In this document: in pieces, positions 58,664-59,185 of the stretch
Layout: the number at the start of each line of letters is the position of its first letter
Numbering within the stretch: position 1 is the first letter of the stretch
Source: Terriglobia bacterium
GTDB lineage: Bacteria; Acidobacteriota; Terriglobia; Bryobacterales; Bryobacteraceae
NCBI GenBank assembly: GCA_020073265.1
Contig: JAIQFN010000004.1
Span: forward strand, 62,001 to 126,000
DNA length: 64,000 nt
Direction of reading: 5' to 3'
The notes under the pieces: generated by a model
What the model was told of the DNA's origin: nothing
Database searches by the model: none
The model's input: the letters and a program-made list of their open reading frames with translations, nothing else
Program-made: the position numbers and the translations under genes

Positions 58664-59185
58664 CTAGGCAGTCAGGCGCGCGATCACCTCTTCAAGCACG
58701 GCGTCGGCCTTGGCTTCGATCTCCGCTTTGGTCTGGTCCTGGATGGGGTGCGGGACATAGACGGCATCGAACTCGGGCCGGCCGAGGGCGGCGGCTTGAG
58801 CGCGCGCGGCGGTCATGAACTCGTGCGTGGCTATGGGCACCGCGGCCAGCCCCATATTTTCCAGTCTCAAAGTATCGTGCAAACTGCACGTTGTGCAGGA
58901 CCCTCAATCGGCCAGCGCCTCGATCACCGCGTCGGCCCCGCGGATCTTCTCGATGACGCCGGCGGGCGCGGGCTTGGCGAAGGTCGGCTTCATCTCGCGG
59001 ATCACGGATGTCACGCCATAGCGCTGCTTGAGCAGAAGCTCGACGCGATCGAGAAAGACGCTGCCGCCCGGCTTGCTGATGTCCAGCAGCGCGACGGTCT
59101 TGCCCTGGAGAGTGGCGAGGCGCGGCGCGGCGGGAGCGGCCTGTGGCGCGCGCTCGTTCATCGGATTCACTAATGTCGTTGGCAT
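58664..59185 (-). CDS. UGSC family selenoprotein (in-frame UGA = selenocysteine)
   Basis: The frame opens at ATG 59185 (GAGGGAACCT upstream) and meets TGA at 58904-58906, then continues without stop to 58664. Reading TGA as selenocysteine gives 173 residues with ALAD-U-GSCTTCSLHDT, the signature of the UGSC family (Sec94, Cys97, plus Cys100). Residues before it (GKTVALLDISKPGGSVFLDR) and after it (NMGLAAVPIATHEFM; AVYVPHPIQDQTK) both match this family. The hairpin CTGCAC-AAC-GTGCAG (58898-58884) starts six bases after the UGA, the place of a bacterial SECIS. Members are thiol/selenol redox proteins of unknown substrate. The upstream neighbour is a thioredoxin-domain protein. Confidence 0.9.
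58884..58898 (-). promoter_or_regulatory. Candidate SECIS hairpin for the UGSC selenoprotein
   Basis: A perfect six-base stem CTGCAC/GTGCAG with a three-base loop begins six bases after the UGA on the coding strand. Bacterial SECIS hairpins lie directly downstream of the Sec codon; the fit is by position and stem only. Loop details were not checked against SelB requirements. Confidence 0.5.

Follow-up and report, generated by a model that had tools for sequence, protein, structure and literature searches.

The UGSC selenoprotein family has been in print since 2008 (PMC2398784), with ABI76733.1 as its reference protein (PMC13188914), and is represented by the profiles PF24696 (Pfam) and NF041046 (NCBIfam, 'UGSC family (seleno)protein'). 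In the accessible text of the 2008 paper, a Global Ocean Sampling study, UGSC was grouped with thiol oxidoreductases of likely thioredoxin (Trx)-like fold, and selenoproteins termed UGSC/Unknown_1 fusions, in which UGSC is joined to an unknown conserved domain, were described (PMC2398784). The literature, as far as it was accessible, yielded no family member with a reported, measured activity. Two further systems resemble parts of the locus described here. Selenoprotein B of the glycine, betaine, sarcosine, and D-proline reductases (GrdB/PrdB; TIGR01918, PF07355) carries a U-x-x-C(-x-x-C) motif after a hydrophobic strand and then an E-x-x-G-I-P pattern, as does UGSC. In these reductases, which include companion subunits, a C–N bond of the substrate is cleaved reductively. 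Proteins of the TlpA/ResA/DsbE type have their CPTC motif and fold in common with the first 108 residues of a partner protein encoded immediately upstream of our UGSC gene.

A UGSC-family gene with an in-frame TGA

The window analysed, that is the whole stretch of DNA under study, comprises 64,000 nucleotides (64 kb) of contig JAIQFN010000004.1 from a Terriglobia bacterium, whose genome assembly is 6.41 Mb in 131 contigs and 98% complete. A preliminary description, made from the letters of the sequence, had pointed to a minus-strand frame in which a UGA stands just before GSC and is flanked by residues that fit the UGSC family. Frame, coordinates, and U-G-S-C context were confirmed by re-reading and translation, giving the following features.

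59185–58664, minus strand: UGSC-family selenoprotein gene, read-through translation of 173 aa with Sec as residue 94
58906–58904, minus strand: in-frame TGA, the predicted selenocysteine codon, which is TGA in 23 of 23 distinct close relatives and TGC in distant homologues
60687–59194, minus strand: partner gene, 497 aa, TlpA/ResA-like thioredoxin domain (CPTC) plus a domain of ~330 aa without a Pfam match
60774–61670, minus strand: short-chain dehydrogenase (SDR) gene, upstream of the partner (PF00106, 146 bits)

From the ATG at 59185 the frame runs to a stop at 58664 with a single in-frame TGA, around which the read-through translation is ...DAVIEALAD-U-GSCTTCSLHD.... The read-through protein gave full-length matches to PF24696 (160.7 bits; cut-off 25) and NF041046 (147.1 bits; cut-off 125), and in the alignment the family's (U/C)GSC motif is present as U94-G-S-C. 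The second and third Cys of the Sec-x-x-Cys-x-x-Cys motif were conserved among close relatives. By profile and motif, the gene is an additional member of the already known UGSC family, with which it shares the full-length match, U-G-S-C, the in-frame TGA, and a bacterial SECIS-like hairpin; there is no fundamental difference, and the partner of the close Acidobacteriota version carries a fused thioredoxin domain. Mechanical ORF calling reproduced the split into 93 aa and 72 aa that had been foreseen for an ordinary gene caller: the first piece stops at the TGA and measures 93 aa when started at the ATG at 59185, or 97 aa when started at a TTG; the second, of 72 aa, starts with a TTG at 58882. 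The case illustrates how gene callers cut selenoprotein genes at the active site.

The closest relatives, 60–79% identical, came mostly from Acidobacteria metagenome-assembled genomes (MAGs), plus one Gemmatimonadota and one Sumerlaeota MAG. Among 396 Acidobacteriota genomes, 39 had a UGSC match, and nearly all matches held exactly one TGA. Within the bacterium's own family the gene was carried by 3 of 61 genomes, in each case with TGA; its distribution is therefore sporadic.

A partner protein associated with UGSC

The stop codon of the partner gene lies 8 nt ahead of the UGSC start codon. Pfam matches of the partner (AhpC-TSA/Redoxin) were confined to its N-terminus, where residues 1–108 matched ResA/DsbE in fold; the comparison with DsbE 3gl3 gave Z 13.4 and an rmsd of 2.3 across 108 residues. 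Unlike the TlpA/ResA/DsbE proteins, the partner has the additional fused domain of ~330 aa, to which no Pfam model matched, even at an E-value of 10. In a fold search with the whole partner the matches were taken up by its thioredoxin domain, and a sequence search of the PDB returned no credible relative of either the UGSC protein or the partner domain.

In almost every locus examined, the partner domain was a direct neighbor of UGSC, on either side of it and with or without thioredoxin; it stood beside UGSC in all seven plasmid loci that were read, and in one Acidobacteriota family (f29) the two form a single ORF with UGSC first. The gene order was trxB-trxA-partner-UGSC in Arthrobacter, and in Variovorax trxB lies near partner-UGSC, which an SDR gene precedes. 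No partner was found within about 11 kb of UGSC in one close relative (G032), and the second UGSC copies of two genomes (G265 and G168) were without one. Because fusion and adjacency recur across bacteria and haloarchaea, the UGSC protein and its partner are very likely paired in function. The UGSC/Unknown_1 fusion, as presented in the accessible text (PMC2398784), may be the same association, although in our genome the partner has a gene of its own, upstream of UGSC. Beyond this pair, a comparison of 15 loci revealed no conserved gene neighborhood. The SDR gene at 60774–61670 is possibly part of the same transcript as partner-UGSC, the link being weak; an SDR next to the pair was not found conserved in close relatives.

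Similarity of the Sec site to GrdB

In a true GrdB gene, U-x-x-C-x-x-C is followed by an E-x-x-G-I-P pattern similar to that of UGSC. Profile comparison (hhalign) of UGSC with this single GrdB sequence gave a probability of 90.8%, and with eleven GrdB-like sequences 94.4%, with the Sec motifs superposed and a pairwise E of 8.5e-8. The unrelated partner alignment, used as a control, reached 0.2%; the GrdB similarity spans 67 columns only and rests on small alignments and one control. PF07355 (Pfam GRDB) did not match the UGSC protein at E-values up to 10, and this profile seems to end just ahead of the Sec site. TIGR01918 matches in UGSC-bearing genomes lay at other loci than UGSC. The UGSC protein is shorter than GrdB/PrdB and does not rise above threshold in GrdB models, and its partner bears thioredoxin in place of the known companion subunits of GrdB/PrdB. 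We regard common descent of the Sec-bearing half of UGSC and that of GrdB as probable from these alignments, without membership of UGSC in GrdB. Short GrdB-like genes were also seen in many Acidobacteriota (L093–L111; in the same genome as our gene at G000:C58:10413-10787). Many of these genes combine UPxC with an in-frame TGA, and others encode Cys or Asp in that position.

Predicted fold and proposed function

An AlphaFold model of the UGSC protein (26 sequences) had a mean pLDDT of 92.5 and alternating strands and helices, with Sec94 placed between strand 86–92 and helix 95–110. In the fold search it matched generic chains of the Rossmann/flavodoxin-like type, with a top Z of 10.7 and many unrelated entries near 9. 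CheY, lumazine synthase, and other Rossmann-like chains were the best of them; no thioredoxin was among the matches listed. Since the matches are many and unrelated, they indicate a common arrangement and no function. GrdB-type structures were likewise absent from the fold matches listed, which does not exclude a relation to GrdB. As modeled, the UGSC protein would be a small Rossmann-like domain, which seems at odds with the thioredoxin-like fold proposed in the accessible text of the 2008 study (PMC2398784).

We consider it probable, as an explanation of the whole, that a hairpin-directed reading of UGA yields a Rossmann-like Sec protein that works with its partner, performs GrdB-like chemistry, and is re-reduced by thioredoxin. 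The GrdB-like chemistry taken by itself is close to evenly balanced, and slightly on the doubtful side. Most likely, Sec94 would serve as nucleophile or reductant toward a small organic substrate, on the model of GrdB/PrdB of glycine and D-proline reductase. Cys97 or Cys100 may resolve the intermediate, so that turnover would leave a selenenylsulfide or disulfide. The selenolate could then be restored by the thioredoxin domain of the partner or, in other lineages, by separate TrxA/TrxB, with the ~330-aa domain of the partner perhaps helping to bind substrate. The biochemical function of UGSC given here is inferred.

Alternatively, the same selenoprotein could act in stress defense as a thiol peroxidase or disulfide oxidoreductase of a general kind, for which the partner's thioredoxin domain and the trxA/trxB neighbors would be equally suitable, as they would for any Sec-based redox enzyme; the placement among thiol oxidoreductases of likely Trx-like fold in the accessible text of 2008 (PMC2398784) also points that way. 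However, the predicted fold does not look thioredoxin-like, the 19–28 paralogues per genome in one genus suggest diversification over substrates, and the neighbors of UGSC elsewhere are catabolic genes, for example of the PEP mutase/isocitrate lyase and phosphosulfolactate synthase families or for a CoA transferase. A role in stress defense is thus unlikely, and GrdB-like C–X cleavage is favored over a generic peroxidase because of the fold, the GrdB similarity, the catabolic neighbors, and the paralogue expansion, none of which is proof. We suggest tentatively, as a possibility that falls short of likely, that UGSC and its partner make up a widespread two-component Sec enzyme system, in which the partner connects thioredoxin with a minimal, GrdB-like subunit bearing Sec that reduces varied small organic substrates, especially in the genus with 19–28 mostly fused copies.

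This genus (g104 of family f29) was represented by three genomes (G173, G333, and G182; L064–L068, L112–L141) with 28, 27, and 19 UGSC-family matches, respectively. Most of the paralogues were ORFs of 560–680 aa whose single in-frame TGA falls at the UGSC site, where the motifs UGSC, USSC, UDGC, and USQC occurred, and the partner domain was fused behind UGSC where checked; some had Ser, Asn, or Leu in place of Sec. As predicted from these genes, the genus is an unusually Sec-rich lineage. Members of a UGSCTKF/UGSCTKY subgroup (L122, L123, L126, L129, L130, L132, L134) have the TGA, but enumeration mostly found no stable simple bSECIS hairpin at the expected place, and this subgroup may use a bulged or different element.

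The pairing with an upstream partner (fused in some), the Rossmann-like predicted fold, and the similarity of the Sec site to GrdB seem new. In open-access papers mentioning UGSC together with selenoprotein, as far as their text was accessible, we found no mention of a pairing with the partner, of a resemblance to GrdB, of the fold predicted here, or of 19–28 copies per genome in one genus. Together, the near-constant partner and its thioredoxin domain, the resemblance of the Sec site to GrdB, the predicted fold, and the large expansion among Acidobacteriota provide a testable hypothesis for UGSC function.

The predicted SECIS hairpin

Two overlapping hairpins follow the TGA.

58890–58876, minus strand: bacterial SECIS hairpin CGUGCA-GUU-UGCACG (predicted), 6-pair stem, loop GUU at 58884–58882, 19 nt after UGA
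58898–58884, minus strand: hairpin CUGCAC-AAC-GUGCAG of the preliminary description, present in the sequence but probably without SECIS function

The published bacterial SECIS model, in the accessible part of its source, sets 16–37 nt from UGA to the apical loop (PMC13188914) and a minimum free energy no higher than −7.5 kcal/mol (PMC13188914, Fig. 2). The loop of the hairpin at 58890–58876 begins with G then U at 19 nt from UGA, both as this model requires, and the 19-nt hairpin alone reached −7.4 kcal/mol (z −3.6), just short of the published value. The 51 nt downstream of UGA gave −10.5 kcal/mol in a fold that includes this hairpin. The full minimum-energy fold downstream of the TGA was not exceptional compared with shuffles. 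An extended minimum-energy fold was rejected as SECIS, with 75.3% of cells paired and some pairs broken in most relatives.

Across 23 sequences, 99.3% of the cells of the stem at 58890–58876 were paired. The loop opens with the last two bases of a Ser codon, which was AGT in 22 of the 22 sequences with Ser there, against an AGT share of 4.9% among Ser codons in 13 partner genes, and a Leu codon in the SECIS region was TTG in 14 of 14, against 13.4% in partner genes; the sequences behind these codon and pairing counts are related, so that the counts cannot be read as numbers of events. In GSC, just upstream of the SECIS, the Ser codon varied freely and used all four TCN codons. A compensatory change of a C-G to a G-C pair in the stem, which also turns a Cys of the protein into Trp, occurred in one Acidobacteriota relative and again in the Acidovorax and Paracoccus Sec homologues, which keep the hairpin; in the Cys homologues of Embleya and Arthrobacter the stem was lost and the Ser codon was AGC or TCC. 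With a stem that hardly varies there is little covariation, and the weight rests on the synonymous constraint.

The preliminary description had instead named the six-base hairpin that starts six bases after the TGA. That stem is real, with six perfect pairs and 92.8% of cells paired in relatives, but it is not the conserved one of the two, and it was the hairpin further downstream that fitted the bacterial model in loop and spacing. In 8 of 23 relatives the stem at 58898–58884 has lost its outer pair. With its 3' arm it runs into the better conserved hairpin, it is bordered by the freely varying Ser codon, and its loop AAC lacks a G and starts 11 nt after UGA, outside the range of 16–37 nt given in the accessible text of the model (PMC13188914). 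The genome's own selD (GUCCAAA-GGU-UUUGGAC, 20 nt after UGA) and most GrdB-like genes examined in the phylum (loops GUC, GUG, or GGC at 18 nt) use a later geometry, with G-containing loops 18–20 nt after UGA. It is therefore very improbable that this hairpin, and not that at 58890–58876, serves as the SECIS. An Rfam scan of the window found no SECIS, its only match being a cobalamin riboswitch (20154–20348, minus strand; 90.7 bits). The eukaryotic SECIS_1 model matched nowhere, controls included, which makes that search uninformative.

Predicted decoding of the UGA as selenocysteine

All four genes for selenocysteine incorporation, proposed earlier as a check of the selenoprotein reading, were found in the genome: selA (E 3e-103), selB (384.6 bits; cut-off 242), selD (376.5 bits, with its own in-frame TGA), and selC, a tRNA-Sec with anticodon TCA (UCA in RNA) supported by 76 bits and an independent ARAGORN call. 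Other tRNA-Sec candidates in the genome turned out to be ordinary tRNA-Ser and tRNA-Gly where checked. The selD gene (G000:C85:8028-8939, minus strand; L010) combines its in-frame TGA with a SECIS-like hairpin of the same geometry as that of UGSC, and the genome therefore has at least two predicted selenoprotein genes.

SelB and tRNA-Sec would read the UGA at 58906–58904 as selenocysteine, directed by the hairpin at 58890–58876, a step strongly supported by sequence; on these grounds Sec insertion at this codon is practically certain. A chance TGA is excluded because all 23 distinct close relatives, from independent assemblies, have TGA at the same codon and the protein is conserved on both sides; none of the close relatives examined ended at the TGA. 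The selenoprotein reading is further supported by distant plasmid homologues, which have TGA in Acidovorax and Paracoccus and TGC (Cys) at the same place in two Natrinema, Arthrobacter, Variovorax, and Embleya. A plain stop, with the downstream piece as a separate gene or decaying remnant or with the TGA as an assembly error, would agree with the two ORFs that gene callers give and with the TTG start codon at 58882, but it is refuted in practice by the shared TGA of the 23 relatives, the conserved C-terminal half and family profiles that span the TGA site, the complete Sec machinery, and the continuous reading frames of the Cys homologues across the site.

On plasmid pFER4 of Paracoccus ferrooxidans (L147; 4914–6571, and 9886 onward), the UGSC gene is annotated as two hypothetical proteins, split at the TGA; the partner gene follows it, and selB lies ~4.4 kb downstream on the same plasmid.
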